A stretch of DNA of 64,000 bases, taken from positions 186,001-250,000 of the forward strand of contig NZ_QZMN01000003.1 in assembly GCF_003702705.1 (NCBI RefSeq). Direction: 5' to 3'. Position 1 is the first letter of the stretch. Each line of letters starts with the position of its first letter. The translations under genes and the position numbers were made by a program. This DNA is from Ornithinimicrobium cerasi (lineage in GTDB: Bacteria > Actinomycetota > Actinomycetes > Actinomycetales > Dermatophilaceae). The notes under the pieces are model-generated. The model saw only the letters and a program-made list of their open reading frames with translations. It was not told where the DNA came from and ran no database searches. Positions 12,364-53,641 of this stretch are shown here, in pieces.

Positions 12364-14865
12364 TCAGCCCAGCGAGGACCAGAGCAGGGCGCGGGCCACG
12401 AGGGCGTACTGACCCTTGGGGTGCGCCCGGAAGAGCGGCTCGGAGCCCATGAGCACCACCCGGGCCCCCGTCTCGGCGTCCGTGCCCCGGACGACCACGG
12501 CCTGCCCGGCGGCGGCGTCCGGGCCGCCGCGCCCGTCCACGTCGGCCCGCCAGTGCCCGCTCACCAGCGGGTCGGCGGCGTAGGTCTGGTCCGCCTCCAC
12601 CCCAGGTCCCAGGTCGGTGAACCACAGCGGGGCGTAGACGAAGGTGTGCGGCGTCGCGCCCGCCGTGACGGGGGAGTCGGCGTTGTCGACGGCGACGACG
12701 CCGTTGGCGTCACCACGCCCCACGACCGCGTCCACGTCGAGCAGCCCCAGGGCGTCGTTGAGCCCGGCGCCGGTGCCGCCGCGGCCGACGACGCCGCCGC
12801 CGTCCTCGAGGAACGACTCCAGCTCGGCCCGGCCCAGGGCCCCGAGATCACGCCAGGACAACCCGCTGGACACGTAGAGCGCGTCGACGCCCTCCAGGTC
12901 CAGGCCCGCGTCGAGCGCGGCCGAAGTCACCGGGACCACGTCCAGGCCGAGCTCGCCGAAGGCCCACAGCTCCTCGGCCGTGCCGGCGACCCCCACCGTC
13001 AGGGGACCCATCGGGTCACCGGCGGCCCCGGCGGGCGCGGGCGCCAGCGCGACCCCGTGCTCCGCGACGACAGCCTGGGCGGCGGCGACGTCGCCGGCGG
13101 GCACCAGGACCGCACCGTCGTCCAGCAGCTCGACCTGCACCCCGGCGGAGAGGAGGTCCACGAGGGCCCGCACGTCGGCCGGGTCCTCCAGCTCGAGCCG
13201 CCAGCCGGCGGAGGAGAGGGCGAGGGAGCCGCTGGCGGCCGCCGCGTCGACCTCCTGCCCGACGACGGAGAGCCGCACGCCCTCGGGGACGGTGACCACG
13301 TCGGCGCCCCAGAGCAGGCCGTGGCTCCACCCGGCGATGTCGTACATGGCCTCGACCCGCTCGGAGATGTCGGTGCCCGCACCGAGGATGGTGTTCGCCA
13401 TCCCCCTCCGGGCCTGGTGCAGGTCGACCAGGTAGCTGCCGGCTGGATAGGTCTGGCCGGCGATGGACGCGGGCCGCGTCAACCGGGTCACCTCGACCCC
13501 GTTGGCGACGAGGTGGTCGACGAGACGGGCTGCCGCGGGTGCCGAGCGCTGCCCCGCGCCGACGGGCACGACGTAGGCGCGGGGGTAGTCACCGAGGTAG
13601 ACGTCCTCCGGCCCGATCAGCCCGAAGAGGCCCTCCTCGACGGGGGTCTGCGGCGCGCCGTCCACGCCCCGGCGGAAGATCTCGATCTGGCCCGCGAGCA
13701 GCTCCGCGCGGTGCTCGCGGACGTAGTCGAGCGACGCGGTCATGGCCGCGTGCGCGATGTCGGTGTTGATCGCGGCACGGCGGCGCAGCTCGGTCTCCGG
13801 CAGCGAGGAGGCGGAGTTGTTGACCCGCAGCGGCACCTCGACGGTGTGCGCGACGGCGCCGTGCAGCGCGGCGTACTGCGGCGTGAAGATCGGCGGCCAG
13901 TCGTCCCACCCCTCGGACCAGTCGCGCAGGGGGATCTGGGTGGGCTCGACCCCGTCGGCCCGGTCGTGGCCGAGCGCCCGGATCGCCTCCTCCATCCCGA
14001 GGGCGTTGGGGTAGGCGTGCTCGACGACGAGGTCGTACTCGTAGTTCTCGCCGTGCGGGGGAGTCGTCGGCTCCACGAGCGTGCCGTTGACGTAGCCGTG
14101 CAGGTCCAGCAGGAGGACCGGCTGGGTGCGCACGATCGCGTCTCGGACCCCGACCACCTCAGGCTGCGTGGCGGTGACGAGGTCACGGTTGAGGTCGAAC
14201 CCGGCCGAGTTGCGCCGGGTCCCGTCGTGGCGGCCGTCCGGGTTCATCGAGACGACGAGGTGGATCCGGGACCGCTCGAGGGTCTCCAGGACCTCCGGGT
14301 CCTGCGACGTCGCGTAGTCCTCGACCAGGCGGAGCGCGGCGTCGGTCCCCTCGTACTCGTTGCCGTGGATGTTGGCGTTGAGGAAGACCGGCACCTTGTA
14401 GGAGCGTGCCAGGCCGCGGTCCCGCGCGGCCTGCGCGGGCAGCCTGGTGACCCGGTCGCGCATCGTCGCCTGCTGGCGCGCCTGGGCGAGGCTCTCCGGC
14501 GCGGTGAGGGTGACCAGCACGACCTCGCGGCCGGTCGCGGTCGTCGCGACCACCTCCGTCGAGACGCGGTCGGAGCCGGCCTGCGCGGCGTTGAGCCGTC
14601 GCGCGATGTCGGAGTATGGCGTCAGTCCCAGCCGCAGGGCGGCGTCACCCGGGTCCGGCGCCGGCTCGGGCAGCACGGTCCGCCGCGGGTAACCCGCCTC
14701 CACGACAGGGGCCGCGAGCTCCTCGACCCGGAGCACGTCCGCCGCCGCCGGGGGGAGGGCGAGGAGCGCCGGGGCGAGCACCGTGGTGCCCAGCAGCCCG
14801 GCCGCGAGCACGGCGGCGAGCGCACCCCTGCGGGGGCGCGCTGCGCGCGGCGCGGCGTACGGCAT
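12364..14865 (-). CDS. Secreted M14 family zinc carboxypeptidase
   Basis: 833 residues. A signal peptide (basic residues 11-13, hydrophobic 14-37, AAA-D cleavage near 43) directs export. The M14 zinc site is intact: HGNE (His167, Glu170) and LHG (His256), with NPDGR and FDLNRD for substrate binding and HTVEVPLR holding the catalytic Glu. The last 350-400 residues form a further region with a glutamine-amidotransferase-like look (DALYVSSGLSW, GRGGTGAGL). GAGGAG precedes the ATG. It diverges from the three-gene amidohydrolase-QEGLA-ATP-grasp operon, and a paralogue lies at 51050-53641. Confidence 0.9.
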   Translation of the reverse strand: MPYAAPRAARPRRGALAAVLAAGLLGTTVLAPALLALPPAAADVLRVEELAAPVVEAGYPRRTVLPEPAPDPGDAALRLGLTPYSDIARRLNAAQAGSDRVSTEVVATTATGREVVLVTLTAPESLAQARQQATMRDRVTRLPAQAARDRGLARSYKVPVFLNANIHGNEYEGTDAALRLVEDYATSQDPEVLETLERSRIHLVVSMNPDGRHDGTRRNSAGFDLNRDLVTATQPEVVGVRDAIVRTQPVLLLDLHGYVNGTLVEPTTPPHGENYEYDLVVEHAYPNALGMEEAIRALGHDRADGVEPTQIPLRDWSEGWDDWPPIFTPQYAALHGAVAHTVEVPLRVNNSASSLPETELRRRAAINTDIAHAAMTASLDYVREHRAELLAGQIEIFRRGVDGAPQTPVEEGLFGLIGPEDVYLGDYPRAYVVPVGAGQRSAPAAARLVDHLVANGVEVTRLTRPASIAGQTYPAGSYLVDLHQARRGMANTILGAGTDISERVEAMYDIAGWSHGLLWGADVVTVPEGVRLSVVGQEVDAAAASGSLALSSAGWRLELEDPADVRALVDLLSAGVQVELLDDGAVLVPAGDVAAAQAVVAEHGVALAPAPAGAAGDPMGPLTVGVAGTAEELWAFGELGLDVVPVTSAALDAGLDLEGVDALYVSSGLSWRDLGALGRAELESFLEDGGGVVGRGGTGAGLNDALGLLDVDAVVGRGDANGVVAVDNADSPVTAGATPHTFVYAPLWFTDLGPGVEADQTYAADPLVSGHWRADVDGRGGPDAAAGQAVVVRGTDAETGARVVLMGSEPLFRAHPKGQYALVARALLWSSLG

Positions 14866-14962
14866 ACCAGACTCCTCGACGTCCTGAACCCCCGACCCTA
14901 TCCGCGCGCACCGACGGAGGGAAGCCGGTCCCCGCGGAGGTGACGCGCGCGTCAGGGTGGGG

Positions 14963-14968
14963 TAGACA
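14963..14968 (+). promoter_or_regulatory. -10 box of a leaderless transcript
   Basis: TAGACA ends 6 bases before the GTG at 14975; GTGACG at 14940-14945 is a possible -35 box with a 17-base spacer. This would drive the whole amidohydrolase-QEGLA-ATP-grasp operon. Confidence 0.45.
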
Positions 14969-14974
14969 AGCACC

Positions 14975-15775
14975 GTGACCTCCACCGACGCGTTCACCCT
15001 GTCCGGCGACTGGTCCGGCCAGCTGGTGGCCACCGCCATCCACGCCGGTCACGCCCTGCGGCCGGAGGTCTCCGACCTCCTGGTCCTCGACGAGGCCGTG
15101 CGGCTGCGCGAGGAGGACCCCTTCACGGACGTGATCGGTGCCGGGCGCGCCGAGACGGCCCGCGTCGTCGTCCACCGCTCCCGCTTCGAGGTCGACCTGA
15201 ACCGGCCCCGGGACACCGCCGTCTACCGGACCCCGGAGGAGGCGTGGGACCTGGAGGTGTGGCGCGAGAACCCTCTGGACGAGGGTGTGGTGGGTCGCAG
15301 CCTCGAGGTCTACGACGCCTTCTACGCGGCGCTGGGCGCCCGGCTGGACGAGGTGGCGGCGCGGGGTCCCTTCGTCGTCTACGACGTCCACTCCTACAAC
15401 CACCGCCGGGACGGTGCGGACGGGCCGGAGGCCGACGTCGAGGGCAACCCGGAGGTCAACCTCGGCACGGGGACCGTGGCGGAGGTCTTCCGGCCGGTCG
15501 TCGCCGCCTTCGCGCAGTCCCTCGGGGACCAGGAGGTGCGGGGCCACCGGCTGGACGTGCGGGAGAACGTGAAGTTCGAGGGGCGCGCGCTCGCCTGGTG
15601 GGTGCACGAGCGCTACGCCGGGGTCGGTGTCTGCCTGGCGCTGGAGTTCCGCAAGACCTTCATGGACGAGTGGAGCGGGGAGCCCGACCCCGACCACCTC
15701 GCGCAGCTGCAGCGCGCCCTGACCGCCACCCACGAGCCCGTGCTCGACGCGCTCGCGGGTCTGTCGCGACGATGA
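14975..15775 (+). CDS. N-formylglutamate amidohydrolase-like zinc enzyme
   Basis: 266 residues. Family marks are IHAGHALRPE (metal-binding His near residue 23), RFEVDLNRPRDTAVY and VVYDVHSYNHRR, then LALEFRKTFMDEW near the C-terminus. N-formylglutamate amidohydrolases release formate and glutamate in histidine breakdown, but no hut gene is present here. Instead the stop overlaps (ATGA) a DUF1704 metallopeptidase that itself overlaps an ATP-grasp ligase. The true substrate is therefore more likely an N-acyl amino acid or a small glutamyl conjugate made by that operon; this is inference. GTG start with a leaderless-type promoter. Confidence 0.85.
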   Translation: MTSTDAFTLSGDWSGQLVATAIHAGHALRPEVSDLLVLDEAVRLREEDPFTDVIGAGRAETARVVVHRSRFEVDLNRPRDTAVYRTPEEAWDLEVWRENPLDEGVVGRSLEVYDAFYAALGARLDEVAARGPFVVYDVHSYNHRRDGADGPEADVEGNPEVNLGTGTVAEVFRPVVAAFAQSLGDQEVRGHRLDVRENVKFEGRALAWWVHERYAGVGVCLALEFRKTFMDEWSGEPDPDHLAQLQRALTATHEPVLDALAGLSRR

Positions 15776-16965
15776 CCTCCTCGACCGGGCGCGGGGGACA
15801 GGTGCGGCTGGGGCCACGCGACCTCGCCGTCGACCACACCCTGGCGATGCTGGCGGAGGGGACCCGGTTCATCCTCGACGTCACGCCCGTGGACGCGGAC
15901 ACCCACCGGGCCGAGTTCGTCGCCGGCACCCTCGACGAGCCCGCCTTCACCTACCGCGAGCTCGAGGCCGACCCCGACGTCGTGGAGGCCCAGCTCGAGC
16001 ACGCGCCGGTGGACCGGGTGGAGGACCCGACCCTGGCGGACCTGCTCCGGAGCAAGCAACGGGAGATGCGCCTCCAGCTGGAGATGCTGCGGGCCCGCGG
16101 CACCGACGACTTCCGGCAGCTCTCCGTCGAGCTCTACGGCGCGGTCGGGCCGACGCTGCGCTCCCGCGCCGAGGATCTCGTCGGGCGGCTGGACGTGTCC
16201 GACGACCCGGTGGACCTCATCGGCGCCGAGGGCTTCCTGCTGCTGGCCGAGGCCGAGATCGAGCACTACCGCGACCAGGACCCGGACATCGGCATCCACG
16301 CGGAGGTCCGGCCCGACGTCAGCGGGGTGCTCGTCGAGGGCGGGACGCTGCTCATCAGCGAGGACGCGGCGATCGCGAGCGAGCGCGGCGAGGCGCTGCT
16401 CCACCACGAGGTCGGCACCCACCTGGTGACCCAGGTCAACGGCACCGGTCAGCCGGTCCGCACCCTCGGGTCGGGTCTCGCCGGCTACGACGAGACGCAG
16501 GAGGGGCTGGCGGTGCTCGCCGAGGTGGGGTGCGGCGGCCTCACCCCCTTCCGCCTGCGCCAGCTGGCCGTGCGGGTGCTCACGGTCCACCGGATGCTCG
16601 CCGGGGCCAGCTTCCGCGAGGCCTACACCGCCCTGGTCGAGGTGGGGATCCCGGCCGGCGCGGCCTACCTGACGACCATGCGGGTCTACCGTTCCGGCGG
16701 CCTGACCAAGGACGCCATCTACCTGCGCGGGCTCCTCGACCTGCTCGAGCACCTGCGGCACGGGGGTCGCCTCGACCTCCTGTTCCTCGGCAAGTTCGCG
16801 CTGCGCGACCTGCCCCTGGTGCAGGACCTGCACGACCGCGGGGTGCTCTGCCCCGCGCGCCTGACCCCACGGTGGCTGCTGGACCCGCAGGCGGTCGACC
16901 GCCTGGAGCGGGCCGCCGCCACCGACGACCTCACCACCCTGACGGAAGGCAGCACAGCCGCATGA
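15772..16965 (+). CDS. DUF1704 'QEGLA motif' metallopeptidase
   Basis: 397 residues. Family annotation is 'flavohemoglobin expression-modulating QEGLA motif protein'. The zinc site is visible: HEVGTH (His212, Glu213, His217, HExxxH) followed by ETQEGLA (residues 241-247) whose Glu would be the third ligand. The eukaryotic relative MATCAP removes the C-terminal tyrosine of tubulin with this same arrangement, so the bacterial protein is probably a carboxypeptidase of some modified protein or peptide. It is translationally coupled at both ends by ATGA overlaps. Its bacterial substrate is, to my knowledge, undetermined. Confidence 0.88.
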   Translation: MTSSTGRGGQVRLGPRDLAVDHTLAMLAEGTRFILDVTPVDADTHRAEFVAGTLDEPAFTYRELEADPDVVEAQLEHAPVDRVEDPTLADLLRSKQREMRLQLEMLRARGTDDFRQLSVELYGAVGPTLRSRAEDLVGRLDVSDDPVDLIGAEGFLLLAEAEIEHYRDQDPDIGIHAEVRPDVSGVLVEGGTLLISEDAAIASERGEALLHHEVGTHLVTQVNGTGQPVRTLGSGLAGYDETQEGLAVLAEVGCGGLTPFRLRQLAVRVLTVHRMLAGASFREAYTALVEVGIPAGAAYLTTMRVYRSGGLTKDAIYLRGLLDLLEHLRHGGRLDLLFLGKFALRDLPLVQDLHDRGVLCPARLTPRWLLDPQAVDRLERAAATDDLTTLTEGSTAA

Positions 16966-18005
16966 AGATCGCGTTCGTGGTCAACGACGTCGCCACCGAG
17001 CAGTCTTACTACACGACGACGAGGCTCGCCATGGCGGCCTCCAACGCCGGGCACGAGACCTGGCTCATGGGGATGGGGGACTTCGGCTACGAGCCCGACG
17101 GCTCGCTGCGCGCCCGGGCCCGTGCGGGCGCCTCCAAGCGCTACCGCTCCCACGAGCGCTACCTGGAGGACGTGCAGCTGCCGGAGACGGAGCAGCAGGT
17201 GGAGCTGCACACCTTCGACGTGGTGATGCTGCGGGCGGACCCTGCCGACGACAGCGGTGCGGCCTGGGCCAACAACGCCAGCGTCGCGTTCGGCGACCTC
17301 ATGAGCTCGTGCGGGGTGCTCGTCGTCAACGACCCGACCACCCTGGCCAAGGCGCTGTCCAAGGCCTACTTCCAGCACTTCCCGGAGTCGGTGCGCCCAC
17401 GCACCCTGATCTCCCGCGACCAGCCCCGGATCTCGGAGTTCGTCGACGAGCTCGGCGGCAAGGCGGTGCTCAAGCCGCTGCAGGGCTCCGGCGGCTCGGG
17501 GGTCTTCATGGTCAACCGCAAGGAGCGCCCCAACCTCAACCAGATCATCGAGACGCTGTCCAAGGACGGCTACGTCGTGGCGCAGGAGTACCTGCCCCAG
17601 GCCAAGGACGGCGACGTGCGGATGTTCGTCATGAACGGGGAGCCGCTCGAGGTGGGCGGCGCGGTGGCGGCGTTCCGACGGACCCGGGGCGGCGGCGAGG
17701 ACTTCCGGTCCAACATGTCCGCCGGCGGCAAGGCGGTCGCCGTCGACGTCACCGACGAGATGCGCGGCCTCGTGGAGGCGGTGCGCCCCAAGCTGGTCGC
17801 CGACGGCATGTTCCTCGTCGGCCTGGACATCGTCGGCGACAAGCTCATGGAGGTCAACGTCTTCAGCCCCGGGGGCCTGGGCAGCTGCCTGAGCCTCTAC
17901 GACGTGGACTTCGCCCCGGCGATCATCCGGTCGCTGGAGCGCAAGATCACGATGCGCAGCCACTACGGCCCCCAGCTCGACAACATCTCTCTCGCGACCC
18001 TCTGA
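16962..18005 (+). CDS. ATP-grasp ligase, glutathione-synthetase/RimK-like
   Basis: 347 residues: an N-terminal MKIAFVVNDVATEQSYYTTT substrate domain, then an ATP-grasp fold with KAVLKPLQGSGGSGVF (glycine-rich ATP loop), VAQEYLPQAKDGDVRMFV, and a C-terminal metal site in LDIVGDKLMEVNVFSP. This resembles prokaryotic GshB. Actinobacteria with mycothiol normally lack glutathione, and no gshA lies nearby, so a classical glutathione role is unlikely. ATP-grasp enzymes of this group join an amino acid to a carboxylate. Coupling with DUF1704 suggests it writes the bond that DUF1704 or the amidohydrolase removes; this is inference. Confidence 0.85.
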   Translation: MKIAFVVNDVATEQSYYTTTRLAMAASNAGHETWLMGMGDFGYEPDGSLRARARAGASKRYRSHERYLEDVQLPETEQQVELHTFDVVMLRADPADDSGAAWANNASVAFGDLMSSCGVLVVNDPTTLAKALSKAYFQHFPESVRPRTLISRDQPRISEFVDELGGKAVLKPLQGSGGSGVFMVNRKERPNLNQIIETLSKDGYVVAQEYLPQAKDGDVRMFVMNGEPLEVGGAVAAFRRTRGGGEDFRSNMSAGGKAVAVDVTDEMRGLVEAVRPKLVADGMFLVGLDIVGDKLMEVNVFSPGGLGSCLSLYDVDFAPAIIRSLERKITMRSHYGPQLDNISLATL

Positions 18006-18101: not shown

Positions 18102-18980
18102 ATGGCCGTCAACCCGGTCTTCAACCGCATCGACAAGGAGGCCGCCCAGCGCGGGTACGCCGGCTTCGGCAACCAGCCGACCAGCTACGGCCAGCCCCAG
18201 GGCGCCCCCCAGATCCCGGCCGGCTACCAGCCCGGCCCCAGCGAGACGCTGACCGCCGAGCAGCTGCGCGACATGTACCAGCAGGCACCGGCCGGCCCGG
18301 TCCAGACCGGCCGCGTGACGCTCGACGACGTCGTCGTCAAGACGCTGTTCCTGTTCGGCATCGTGCTCGCCGCCACCGCCGCGACCTGGTTCTTCGTCGG
18401 GGCCCAGCCGGGCATCGCGATGCCGGTCTGGCTGCTCGGCATGTTCGGCTCGCTCGGTCTCAGCTTCGCCATCGGCTTCTCCAAGAAGGTCAACGTCCCG
18501 CTCATCGTGGCCCACGCGGTGCTGCAGGGCCTGTTCCTCGGCGCCGTGAGCGTGACCTTCGACGCCCTCTTCCCCGGCGTGGTGACCACCGCGATCGTCG
18601 CGACGCTGGCCACCTTCGTCGGCATGTTCATCGGCTGGAAGATGGGCTTCATCAAGGTGACCAGCAAGACCCGCCGGATCTTCGGCATGGTCGCGATGGG
18701 CTACCTGGTCTTCCTGCTCGTCAACCTGGGCGCCTCCTTCCTCGGGTTCGGCGACGGCTGGGGCATCTACGGCGGGCAGTTCGGCTGGCTCATCGCCCTC
18801 TTGGGCGTCGCGCTGGCGTCATACTCGCTGGCCGTCGACTTCGACTCCGTCGACCGGGCCGTCGCCGGCGGCGCGCCGCAGAAGTACTCCTGGCTGCTCG
18901 GCCACGGTCTCGTCGCGAGCCTGGTCTGGCTGTACATCGAGTTCCTGCGGCTCTTCTCCATCCTGCAGAGCAACAACTGA
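18102..18980 (+). CDS. Bax inhibitor-1/YccA family membrane protein
   Basis: 292 residues. A cytoplasmic Gly/Pro/Gln-rich N-terminus (about 75 residues) precedes seven transmembrane helices, with the C-terminal YIEFLRLFSIL typical of the actinobacterial BI-1/YccA group. The family includes pH-sensitive calcium leak channels and FtsH inhibitors; the role here is not known. ATCGGAGGTTCC before the ATG is a good ribosome site and decides the start. The stop shares one base with the next start. Confidence 0.9.
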   Translation: MAVNPVFNRIDKEAAQRGYAGFGNQPTSYGQPQGAPQIPAGYQPGPSETLTAEQLRDMYQQAPAGPVQTGRVTLDDVVVKTLFLFGIVLAATAATWFFVGAQPGIAMPVWLLGMFGSLGLSFAIGFSKKVNVPLIVAHAVLQGLFLGAVSVTFDALFPGVVTTAIVATLATFVGMFIGWKMGFIKVTSKTRRIFGMVAMGYLVFLLVNLGASFLGFGDGWGIYGGQFGWLIALLGVALASYSLAVDFDSVDRAVAGGAPQKYSWLLGHGLVASLVWLYIEFLRLFSILQSNN

Positions 18981-51049: not shown

Positions 51050-53641
51050 ATGGTCCCCTTCTCCTCCCGCCGTGCCGTGGTCGGCGTCGTCGCCTCCTCC
51101 CTCGCCCTGACGGTGGTCTCCGCGCCCGTCGCCTTCTCCGAACCGCGGAACGGCGGGGGCAAGGGTGGCCAGGAGGTCAACGTCGAGGCGGCCGAGCGCC
51201 GCGAGGCTCGCGGTCCCCGCCCGGTCGAGGCGCCCGTCTCGGGGCTGGAGATGCCGGCGTCCTACCCCTTCCAGCCCGAGCTCACGGTCTACCCCGCCGA
51301 CGCGACGGACCGCTCCTACGCCGGTGACCTCGTCGGTTATGCCGACCTCGCGCCCAGGCTCAACGACCTCATGTCGCGCAGCGACCGGGTGTCGGTGCAG
51401 GTCGTGGGGCAGTCGACGAGCGGTCGGGACCTCTACCTCGTCACCCTCACCGCGCCCGAGAGGGCGGCGGAGACCCGGCGCCAGACGGCATACCGGGACC
51501 TGATCCAGAACGCCCCCGAGAAGGCGGCGCGGGACAAGAAGCTCGCGGCGGACTACAAGACCCCCGTCTGGTTCTCCTCGAACATCCACGGTAACGAGTG
51601 GGAGGGCACAGACGCCTCCCTGGACTACATCGAGGAGCTGGCAACGGCCCCGTGGACGGAGGTCGAGGACCTGCTGACCAACCACCGCCTCTACTTCTCG
51701 CTGACGCTCAACCCGGACGGCCGCTTCCTCGGTCAGCGGGCCACGGCGCTCGGTTTCGACGCCAACCGCGACATGATCACCAACGTGACGCCGGAGTCCG
51801 CCTCCTACGTGCGCACCACCCAGGCGCTGCTGCCGCTCTATGCCTCCGACATCCACGGCTACACCGGCGTCCTGCAGGTGGAGCCGTGCGGGCCGCCGCA
51901 CGGGGAGAACTACGAGTACGACCTGTACATCCCGCACAACTACGCGCTCTCGCTGCAGATCGAGCGGGACGTCGTCGAGGCGGACATCCAGGGCAACCCG
52001 CTCACCGGCGCCGGCGGGATCCGGATCCCCTACCGGGACACCCCCTCGGGCTGGGACGACTACCCGCCGATCTTCACCGCTCAGTACGCCGCCTACTACG
52101 GCGCCCTGACCAGCACCGTGGAGCTGCCCCTGGGGCGCGTCGGAGGGGTCCAGACCCCCTCTGGTGCGGCGACCAACAGCGCTGTCGCGCTGCAGGTCAT
52201 CCGCAGCACCGTCGACTACATGGCGGAGAACGACACCGAGATCCTGGCCAACCAGATCGAGTTCTTCCGGCGTGGGCTCTCCGGCGAGCCGAAGGCCGCC
52301 CTGACGCAGGAGGACGTCGCCGCGGTGCCCGGCCCGGAGCAGTGGAAGGAGCTGTGGGACGTCGCGGACGACCAGGACCCGGTCGCCCTGCCCCAGGCCT
52401 ACGTGATCCCGGTCGGCGCCGGACAACGGTCGCTGAGCGACGCCACGGCGCTGGTGGACCAGCTGTTGCGGCACGACGTCGAGGTGCGCACCCTCAACGC
52501 GGCCACCACGGTCGCCGGCACGACGTACCCGCGCGGCTCCTACGTCGTCGACATGGCGCAGCCCAAGCGGGCCCTCGCCAACACGCTGCTGGACCTGGGC
52601 ACGGACATCTCCGCCAAGGTGCCGTTCATGTACGACATCTCGGCGTGGAGCTACTCCTACCTGTGGGGGGCGAGCGTCGACAAGGTCGGGGACGTCACCG
52701 ACGGCCGGGTGCTGCGGACCTCTGCGGTCGAGCGCGCGACCCGGCAGGCCACCGTCCCGGCCCGCGCCCAGCACGTCACCTTCGACGTCGCCGGCGCGCG
52801 GGACTACGTGGCGCTGAACGACCTGCTCGCGGACGAGGCGGTGGCCTGGCTGCTCCCCTCCGGTCAGGCGGTCGTCGCCCCCGAGTCGCACTCGTTGGCC
52901 GTCAACGTGGCGCTGGAGCACGACATCGCGTTCCGGGCCGCCACTCGCGCGGAGATCGCGACGGTCACCGCCGGGGGGGCCAAGGAGCTGGACGAGGTCA
53001 ACGTCGGCTACACCGGCAACCAGGACCACGTGAACTCGCTGCGGCAGCTGGGCTTCGACCCGGTGCCGGTCTCCACGGCGACGATCACGGCCGACCCCTC
53101 CCTGCTCGAGGACCTCGACGTGATCTGGCTCGGTGCGGCGCTCAGCTTCAGCGGCACCCAGGCGACCGGTCGTGACGCGTTGCAGGCGTGGCTCGACGAG
53201 GGGCACGCGCTCGTCGGGTCCGGCAACAACGCCTTCATCACGGCACGGACCTTCGGGCTGGTCTCCGCGACCGCGAGGAACGGGAACCGCGACGGCAACG
53301 GCATCGTCGCGGTGGACACGCCGGAGGACTCGATCCTGGCCAACTACCCGCAGTCCTCGGCCTTCGTCTACCCGGCGCAGTCCTACACCGGGCTCGGCGC
53401 CGGCACCAGGGCCGAGCAGACCTACGGCGAGGGGGACCCGCTGCTGGCCGGCCACTGGCGTGCGACGAGCGCGACGGACGGCCCGCTGGCCGCGGCCGGT
53501 AACGCGTCGGTGATCTCGGGCGAGTCGGCGACCGGCGGCAAGGCCGTCGTCTTCGGGACGTCGGTCTTCTACCGCACCCACCCCAAGGGCGGTCAGAGCC
53601 AGGCGGCGCAGGCCATCTTCTGGGCCACCCCGGAGGGCTGA
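51050..53641 (+). CDS. Secreted M14 family zinc carboxypeptidase (paralogue)
   Basis: 863 residues. Signal peptide (RRAVVGVVASSLALTVVSAPVAF, cleavage near residue 27). M14 zinc site in SNIHGNEWEGTDAS (HxxE) and ASDIHGYTG (third His); NPDGRFLGQ and ANRDMI bind substrate; STVELPLG supplies the catalytic Glu. As in the paralogue at 12364-14865, a long C-terminal region follows (VIWLGAALSFSG, GSGNNAFIT). AGGAG lies before the ATG. It stands between leuA and leuDC without evident link to leucine synthesis. Confidence 0.9.
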   Translation: MVPFSSRRAVVGVVASSLALTVVSAPVAFSEPRNGGGKGGQEVNVEAAERREARGPRPVEAPVSGLEMPASYPFQPELTVYPADATDRSYAGDLVGYADLAPRLNDLMSRSDRVSVQVVGQSTSGRDLYLVTLTAPERAAETRRQTAYRDLIQNAPEKAARDKKLAADYKTPVWFSSNIHGNEWEGTDASLDYIEELATAPWTEVEDLLTNHRLYFSLTLNPDGRFLGQRATALGFDANRDMITNVTPESASYVRTTQALLPLYASDIHGYTGVLQVEPCGPPHGENYEYDLYIPHNYALSLQIERDVVEADIQGNPLTGAGGIRIPYRDTPSGWDDYPPIFTAQYAAYYGALTSTVELPLGRVGGVQTPSGAATNSAVALQVIRSTVDYMAENDTEILANQIEFFRRGLSGEPKAALTQEDVAAVPGPEQWKELWDVADDQDPVALPQAYVIPVGAGQRSLSDATALVDQLLRHDVEVRTLNAATTVAGTTYPRGSYVVDMAQPKRALANTLLDLGTDISAKVPFMYDISAWSYSYLWGASVDKVGDVTDGRVLRTSAVERATRQATVPARAQHVTFDVAGARDYVALNDLLADEAVAWLLPSGQAVVAPESHSLAVNVALEHDIAFRAATRAEIATVTAGGAKELDEVNVGYTGNQDHVNSLRQLGFDPVPVSTATITADPSLLEDLDVIWLGAALSFSGTQATGRDALQAWLDEGHALVGSGNNAFITARTFGLVSATARNGNRDGNGIVAVDTPEDSILANYPQSSAFVYPAQSYTGLGAGTRAEQTYGEGDPLLAGHWRATSATDGPLAAAGNASVISGESATGGKAVVFGTSVFYRTHPKGGQSQAAQAIFWATPEG

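Follow-up and report, generated by a model that had tools for sequence, protein, structure and literature searches.

An FGase-like amidohydrolase, a MATCAP-type metallopeptidase and a GshB-like ligase encoded as a three-gene block in Ornithinimicrobium cerasi: a candidate system for amino-acid addition and removal

The DNA analysed here is a stretch of 64,000 nucleotides of Ornithinimicrobium cerasi (NCBI RefSeq assembly GCF_003702705.1, contig NZ_QZMN01000003.1, positions 186,001 to 250,000), hereafter the window, to which coordinates refer unless another locus is named. It belongs to a genome of 3.83 Mb in 87 contigs (completeness 99.99) and carries three consecutive genes, hereafter the trio, coding for an FGase-like amidohydrolase, a MATCAP metallopeptidase and a GshB-like ligase. 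These genes, and a short element at the end of the third, are the following.

14975..15775, + strand: amidohydrolase of FGase type (PF05013), encoded first in the trio (open frame of 266 aa; Pfam).
15772..16965, + strand: MATCAP/DUF1704/QEGLA metallopeptidase, second gene (open frame of 397 aa; Pfam).
16962..18005, + strand: GshB-like ATP-grasp ligase of the NCBIfam PRK12458 subfamily, third gene (open frame of 347 aa).
17982..18002, + strand: stop-anchored motif N-I-S-L-A-T-L at the C-terminus of the ligase (consensus N-x-x-L-A-T-x).

Both joins, FGase/MATCAP and MATCAP/ligase, are ATGA overlaps in the window frames, as claimed in an earlier note made from the letters alone. Its description of a HExxxH + QEGLA zinc site in the DUF1704 protein and of an ATP-grasp fold in the ligase proved correct as well. 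The FGase protein passes PF05013 (82.3 bits, cut-off 28.9) and the MATCAP protein PF08014 (265.6 bits, cut-off 27), while the ligase scores 163.6 bits with PF02955 (GSH-S_ATP) and 51.6 bits with PF02951 (GSH-S_N), both over the Pfam cut-off. In the peptidase, the HExxxH residues (H212, E213 and H217) and the Glu of the QEGLA motif (E244) are unchanged across 17 aligned members and also across 29. The structure check proposed for this enzyme recovered the fold of the solved human MATCAP, and alignment places the same HExxxH and downstream E(E/Q)G metal motif in this protein and in human TMCP1 (PMC10499314). Scores with the NCBIfam QEGLA model TIGR02421 (cut-off 338.65) fall under the cut-off for the window protein (287.3 bits) and for that of locus L038 (326.3) and over it for those of Mesorhizobium (373.6) and Photobacterium (459.9). 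The predicted model of the FGase (pLDDT 93) has its best fold matches in 2q7s (E 4.6e-12) and 2odf (E 2.4e-9), after which M14 carboxypeptidases match from E 8.3e-5, and residues H23, H26, E46, E47, D137, H139 and E224 are invariant in 10 and in 28 sequences. Its profile had no match among PDB sequences up to E 0.1, and the protein fails the equivalog for the N-formylglutamate deformylase HutG (TIGR02017; 21.1 bits, cut-off 278.75).

The three genes form one unit. Their distribution was followed in a close-relative set of 98 genomes representing 57 genera and in a phylum-wide sample of 149 genomes, the source genome being included in each. MATCAP occurs in 12 of the 98 genomes (6 of the 57 genera) and the orthologous ligase (E 4.8e-85 or better) is confined to the same 12; any ATP-grasp match at all was obtained in 33 of the 98, the best beyond the 12 having E 2.4e-13. 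Of these 12 genomes, 11 also have the FGase, which is absent from the rest of the 98; the exception (G194) has MATCAP and ligase only. In the phylum-wide sample six genomes have MATCAP, the source genome among them, and in the stretches fetched from the five others two loci (L038 and L039) carry MATCAP with the ligase and three (L035-L037) MATCAP alone. The full trio is thus common in close relatives but not present in every MATCAP carrier.

Gene order was examined in the best 80 of 508 loci with a MATCAP relative, which are close kin and some of whose genomes overlap with the 98. By title, 79 of these are actinobacteria and one is an Acidobacteria metagenome-assembled genome (L054), which has the same trio match as a genome of the genus Ornithinimicrobium (G153). 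The order FGase-MATCAP-ligase is found in 78 of the 80 (77 plus L124, in which one profile matches twice); the two off the pattern are L102, which begins at a contig edge, and L127, whose frames are broken and in which no ligase was found. The MATCAP stop and the ligase start overlap by 4 bases (-4, ATGA type) in 54 of 79 loci. An all-against-all clustering of the flanking frames of the 80 loci, predicted with a simple gene caller, disclosed no widely recurrent fourth family among the 25 largest clusters listed. Outside the trio, the largest cluster groups frames from 21 loci, all of one genus, and the cluster with the broadest spread of genus labels has 6 labels among its 6 loci; a fourth conserved neighbour was accordingly rejected.

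The same unit occurs in rhizobia. In a plasmid collection, a MATCAP relative was found in 127 records, an FGase relative in 116 and a close ligase, at E up to 1e-60, in 123. The three tallies are equal in Sinorhizobium (79 each), Rhizobium (11), Shinella (5), Aminobacter (3), Pararhizobium (2) and Mesorhizobium (1), and unequal, in the order MATCAP, FGase and ligase, in Ensifer (9, 9 and 20), Phyllobacterium (2, 2 and 1) and Photobacterium (2, 2 and none at the E 1e-60 cut-off). Pseudoalteromonas has nine plasmid records with MATCAP and lies outside the FGase and ligase tallies. The order FGase-MATCAP-ligase was found in all 19 rhizobial-type records examined, namely 18 rhizobial ones, several of them of one species, and one labelled Roseateles; in one of the 19 (L184) MATCAP is in two pieces. 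This neighbourhood survey, actinobacterial and rhizobial loci taken together, bears out the unit of three genes read from the window. Rare adjacency in relatives, which by the earlier note would have refuted its reading, did not come true, since nearly all the close relatives examined have the genes side by side. Rhizobial MATCAP proteins possess an additional N-terminal domain of ca. 240 residues, which had no Pfam match in the two proteins scanned and for which hhalign gave a profile probability of 34% with the FGase. The first 240 residues in L133, L134, L138, L139 and L140 are a conserved domain, possibly a worn FGase-like one.

Another arrangement is seen in Vibrionaceae. In Photobacterium sp. 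DA100 the ligase gene comes first and is followed by FGase and MATCAP as a single protein of 660 residues, and the same FGase-MATCAP fusion occurs in Vibrio sp. HDW18, which supports a shared pathway for the two hydrolases. Immediately upstream of the fused gene in Vibrio, and of the ligase and fused gene in Photobacterium, there is a DUF413/maoP gene (loci L135 and L193). The sole match in the phage collection is a MATCAP-like frame of Pseudomonas phage Y1 (OQ572403.1, 63695-64441), with 27.6% identity over 58% of the query.

In the window, the trio is flanked by two resident genes.

12364..14865, - strand: M14 carboxypeptidase, a resident gene next to the site of insertion (PF00246, 65.4 bits, over cut-off).
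18102..18980, + strand: gene for a putative membrane protein of Bax1 type, resident on the opposite side (name assigned by reading).

An internal ATG was chosen as the start of the M14 gene, giving 833 aa, and the longest frame extends to 15039; the product is putatively secreted, on a reading of its signal-like start. The earlier note had correctly described this gene as divergent from the trio and had counted it as a partner. The second of these claims fell. The M14 gene is matched in 32 of 32 genomes of the genus, irrespective of the trio (in two, G169 and G157, at only 46-48% identity), while the trio is present in seven of the 32. In each of 10 loci chosen from the 25 trio-less genomes, the M14 gene directly adjoins the Bax1-type gene, their aligned ends lying 185 to 370 bases apart at what is an empty site, and the further flank genes queried (labelled by reading) are mostly retained. 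M14 is therefore not part of the unit and was rejected as its fourth member. In the seven trio-bearing genomes, window included, the Bax1-type gene adjoins the ligase, and in six of them the trio sits between the M14 and Bax1-type genes, the contig of the seventh (L033) ending within the FGase. The trio is thus present or absent as a whole block at an otherwise kept site. In family members outside the genus that have MATCAP, four loci (L024, L025, L026 and L029) match none of the window flank genes and L030 matches one, of DUF808 type. Trees of single flank genes (M14, thiolase and Bax1-type) do not unite the trio-bearing strains, and a single gain with losses and several gains are accordingly not separable. 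The window encodes a further M14 peptidase at 51257-53626 (+), which shares 41% identity with that at 12364-14865.

The ligase ends in a motif that is held at a fixed distance from its stop codon. Tails were aligned from the stop in 94 distinct ligases, the window one being left out; 15 of them are rhizobial and 79 actinobacterial, the latter taken from 79 of the 80 loci. Asn occurs at position -7 in 93 of them, Leu at -4 in 88, Ala at -3 in 91 and Thr at -2 in 86, whereas the commonest residue at positions -5, -6 and -8 reaches only 24 to 30% and the final residue varies (L in 47, S in 21, I in 6, M in 5, and others). Small indels occur ahead of the motif, the motif-to-stop distance being constant, and the 79 actinobacterial genes use 19 codon combinations at positions -4 to -2, which indicates that selection acts on the protein. 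Nothing resembling the motif was seen at the C-termini of FGase and MATCAP from the same loci, and it is absent from the two GshB proteins compared and from all three MATCAP + ligase pairs that have no FGase. The Photobacterium ligase, from a locus with the FGase-MATCAP fusion, lacks the N and L of the motif. Four lone ligases of Ensifer (L177, L190, L191 and L192) have an altered tail, N-x-x-L-S-T-H/Y, that ends in His or Tyr and not in Leu. It was considered that this tail might be degenerate, which was rejected since the three further records, 89-99% identical to the first, keep the core. The core being kept there without an FGase, a tail that needs an adjacent FGase is a weak idea, for which the three FGase-less pairs lacking the motif would speak.

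A stop-anchored tail motif common to actinobacterial and rhizobial trio ligases is, at the level of sequence, a feature new here. Its fixed position at a free C-terminus, in an operon with an enzyme of a carboxypeptidase family, suggests docking or processing. The tail may be a free C-terminus read by the trio hydrolases, either as a built-in acceptor to which the ligase would add an amino acid that MATCAP would remove, or as a dock into the FGase or MATCAP cleft that would tie the three enzymes together; we regard this as rather unlikely. The logic of an automodified carrier is comparable to that of LysW-type amino-group carriers.

The nature of the ligase bears directly on what the trio may do. 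In rhizobial records, NCBI names it 'glutathione synthetase' (PRK12458) and the peptidase 'flavohemoglobin expression-modulating QEGLA motif protein' (TIGR02421). The window ligase passes the PRK12458 subfamily model (436.6 bits, cut-off 408), but falls under both glutathione synthase equivalog cut-offs (206.8 versus 272 for PRK05246; 190.9 versus 299.05 for TIGR01380), each of which is cleared by the GshB proteins of both Escherichia coli and Sinorhizobium. It resembles GshB in having the same two Pfam domains and 1gsa as its closest solved structure (E 6.8e-44), and differs from it in the extra C-terminal tail and in its position in a tree of 18 ligases, where a 0.999 branch separates the actinobacterial and rhizobial ones from the two GshB. 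The window ligase shares 29% identity with the GshB of E. coli and 30% with one from Sinorhizobium, as against 46-49% with rhizobial ligases; for the trio ligase of S. meliloti, the values with these two GshB proteins are 30 and 34%. The Photobacterium ligase passes PRK05246 (291.7 versus 272) and falls on the GshB side of the tree on a long branch, a placement that argues against lumping it with the other trio ligases.

The gene content of the carriers was also compared. The window genome has no GCS1 or GCS2 match, i.e. no gene of these families for the supply of gamma-glutamylcysteine. Among 14 trio or pair genomes, GCS1 was found in none and GCS2 in six (all three MATCAP + ligase pairs and three of the 11 with the full trio, one of them weakly), while MshC, of mycothiol synthesis, is over its cut-off in 12, window genome included. 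In S. meliloti 2011, pSymB encodes a full-length trio ligase, and a gshB (SMc00419) mutant of this strain is reported to be devoid of glutathione, as validated by high-performance liquid chromatography (PMC7063052). The pSymB ligase would thus supply no measurable glutathione under those conditions. The possibility, raised in the earlier note, of an ordinary glutathione synthetase with a distant gshA did not hold, both equivalogs being failed and the genome having neither GCS1 nor GCS2. Judged by these comparisons, the window ligase is not a typical glutathione synthetase.

We propose, at about an even chance, that the trio is a self-contained writer/eraser for amino-acid addition. The GshB-like ligase would use ATP to activate a free carboxylate of a peptide, a protein tail or a peptide-like metabolite to which it would join an amino acid. 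The metallocarboxypeptidase of MATCAP type would take C-terminal residues off the same product, and the FGase-like amidohydrolase would cut an acyl-amino-acid bond, either of the product itself or of a fragment released by MATCAP. We infer that the hydrolases work against the ligase on a common substrate. This proposal is supported by the co-occurrence of the genes, their fixed order, the -4 overlaps, the FGase-MATCAP fusion, presence and absence as a block, and the lack of a recurrent fourth family. Further support comes from known activities: the human enzymes TMCP1 and TMCP2 act as carboxypeptidases on C-termini and as deglutamylases (PMC10499314), and the RimK/RimB pair adds and removes glutamates on the ribosomal protein RpsF (PMC11957791).

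The RimK/RimB systems (RimABK of Pseudomonas, and the related RloA-RloC) resemble the trio in that an ATP-grasp ligase is encoded beside a peptidase that undoes its additions and a fused protein form also occurs (PMC11957791, PMC12239564). The rlo operon of P. aeruginosa (RloA-RloC), with an ATP-grasp protein and peptidases, is reported to be genetically tied to low-osmolarity tolerance (PMC12239564). The parts differ: RimB is a retropepsin-like aspartic peptidase, whereas the ligase partners of the trio are a PF08014 MATCAP metalloenzyme and a PF05013 FGase, and the trio ligase stays under the RimK family cut-off (TIGR00768, 80.8 bits versus 143.4). A separate RimK-type alpha-L-glutamate ligase gene is present in the window genome (L008:1102-2529 (-), contig C59), with 329.4 bits for a PRK10446 cut-off of 331 and 245 for the RimK family cut-off of 143.4.

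The second comparison is with the tubulin cycle, in which TTL/TTLL ligases add and an enzyme of the MATCAP family (TMCP1/2) removes a C-terminal residue. The peptidase fold and the HExxxH + E(E/Q)G motif are those of the trio MATCAP. TTL is an ATP-grasp-type enzyme. The trio ligase profile, however, matches GshB and RimK-type structures, and TTL is not among the six PDB sequences matched up to E 0.001; nor does the tubulin cycle have a counterpart of the FGase. FtsZ was considered as a tubulin-like partner in 26 genomes, of which G153 gave no match and the tail of G190 was missed by the filter. The end DLDVPDFLK is unchanged in all the other 24 (14 trio-less, 10 with trio or pair), and FtsZ was rejected, there being no trio-linked C-terminal difference. 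Just before this end, FtsZ of six trio-bearing Ornithinimicrobium is one residue longer than in trio-less strains (L163 being among the loci compared), which may be plain ancestry. The analogy with the tubulin cycle, drawn by the earlier note, is best taken as a lead.

Several observations weigh against the writer/eraser proposal. The members of the trio do not always travel together: four closely related Ensifer records have the ligase without FGase or MATCAP in the fetched flanks, the fused hydrolases of Vibrio HDW18 have no ligase within 4 kb on either side, MATCAP stands alone at two loci of Pseudoalteromonas and three of actinobacteria, and at three further actinobacterial loci it is accompanied by the ligase but not by an FGase. 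In Photobacterium damselae at low salinity, PMC10308900 gives a 38-fold rise for a 'glutathione synthase GshB' (A0J47_RS17020) and a 27.5-fold rise for a QEGLA protein (A0J47_RS17025), the two being probably neighbours to judge from their tag numbers, and a 52-fold rise for a RimK gene; the authors treat the first as an ordinary gshB. A joint rise of ligase and peptidase is not by itself suggestive of opposition. Finally, the same gene pattern would arise if the genes served to synthesise a peptide metabolite.

This last alternative is the main rival. The ligase would make a small amide-linked peptide, such as an osmolyte, a thiol or a cofactor side chain, that the hydrolases mature or recycle, no protein being modified. 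GshB and other ATP-grasp enzymes often produce small molecules, PF05013 is named after N-formylglutamate and no substrate-protein gene accompanies the trio; the salinity response of the P. damselae genes would suit an osmolyte. MATCAP relatives of tested activity work on protein C-termini (PMC10499314), and the trio lacks a widely linked transporter or regulator family, neither of which is a strong argument to the contrary. We consider this route a genuine possibility that stops short of being probable. Peptide salvage, in which MATCAP and FGase would degrade peptides or formyl-peptide remnants whose products the ligase reuses, with no specific tag, would account for two hydrolases per ligase and for the deformylase-type name of the FGase; it is improbable, with the FGase far below the HutG cut-off and the strict three-gene order and stop-anchored tail left unexplained. 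Ordinary glutathione synthesis, with the ligase as GshB and gshA elsewhere, has in its favour the NCBI label, the GshB-like Photobacterium ligase and the six genomes with GCS2, and is made highly improbable by the failed equivalogs, the absence of GCS1 and GCS2 matches from the window genome, and of GCS1 from all 14 carriers, the prevalence of MshC and the gshB mutant of S. meliloti.

Among the papers listed in the literature searches, none was found that tests a bacterial QEGLA/MATCAP peptidase or a PRK12458 ligase. A 2009 survey of amidoligases by Iyer and others probably touches on such neighbourhoods, and the trio may already be noted there. The data presented here show, for two phyla, that bacterial relatives of MATCAP are linked to an amino-acid ligase and to a further hydrolase. 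If the writer/eraser proposal is true, bacteria would have in the trio a counterpart of the tubulin and RimK/RimB cycles that is assembled from different components, and it could reveal what MATCAP enzymes do where tubulin is absent. The annotation would likewise have to be corrected, 'glutathione synthetase' genes of mycothiol-using actinobacteria and of rhizobia being something else, and the conserved tail of the ligase offers a direct experimental handle.

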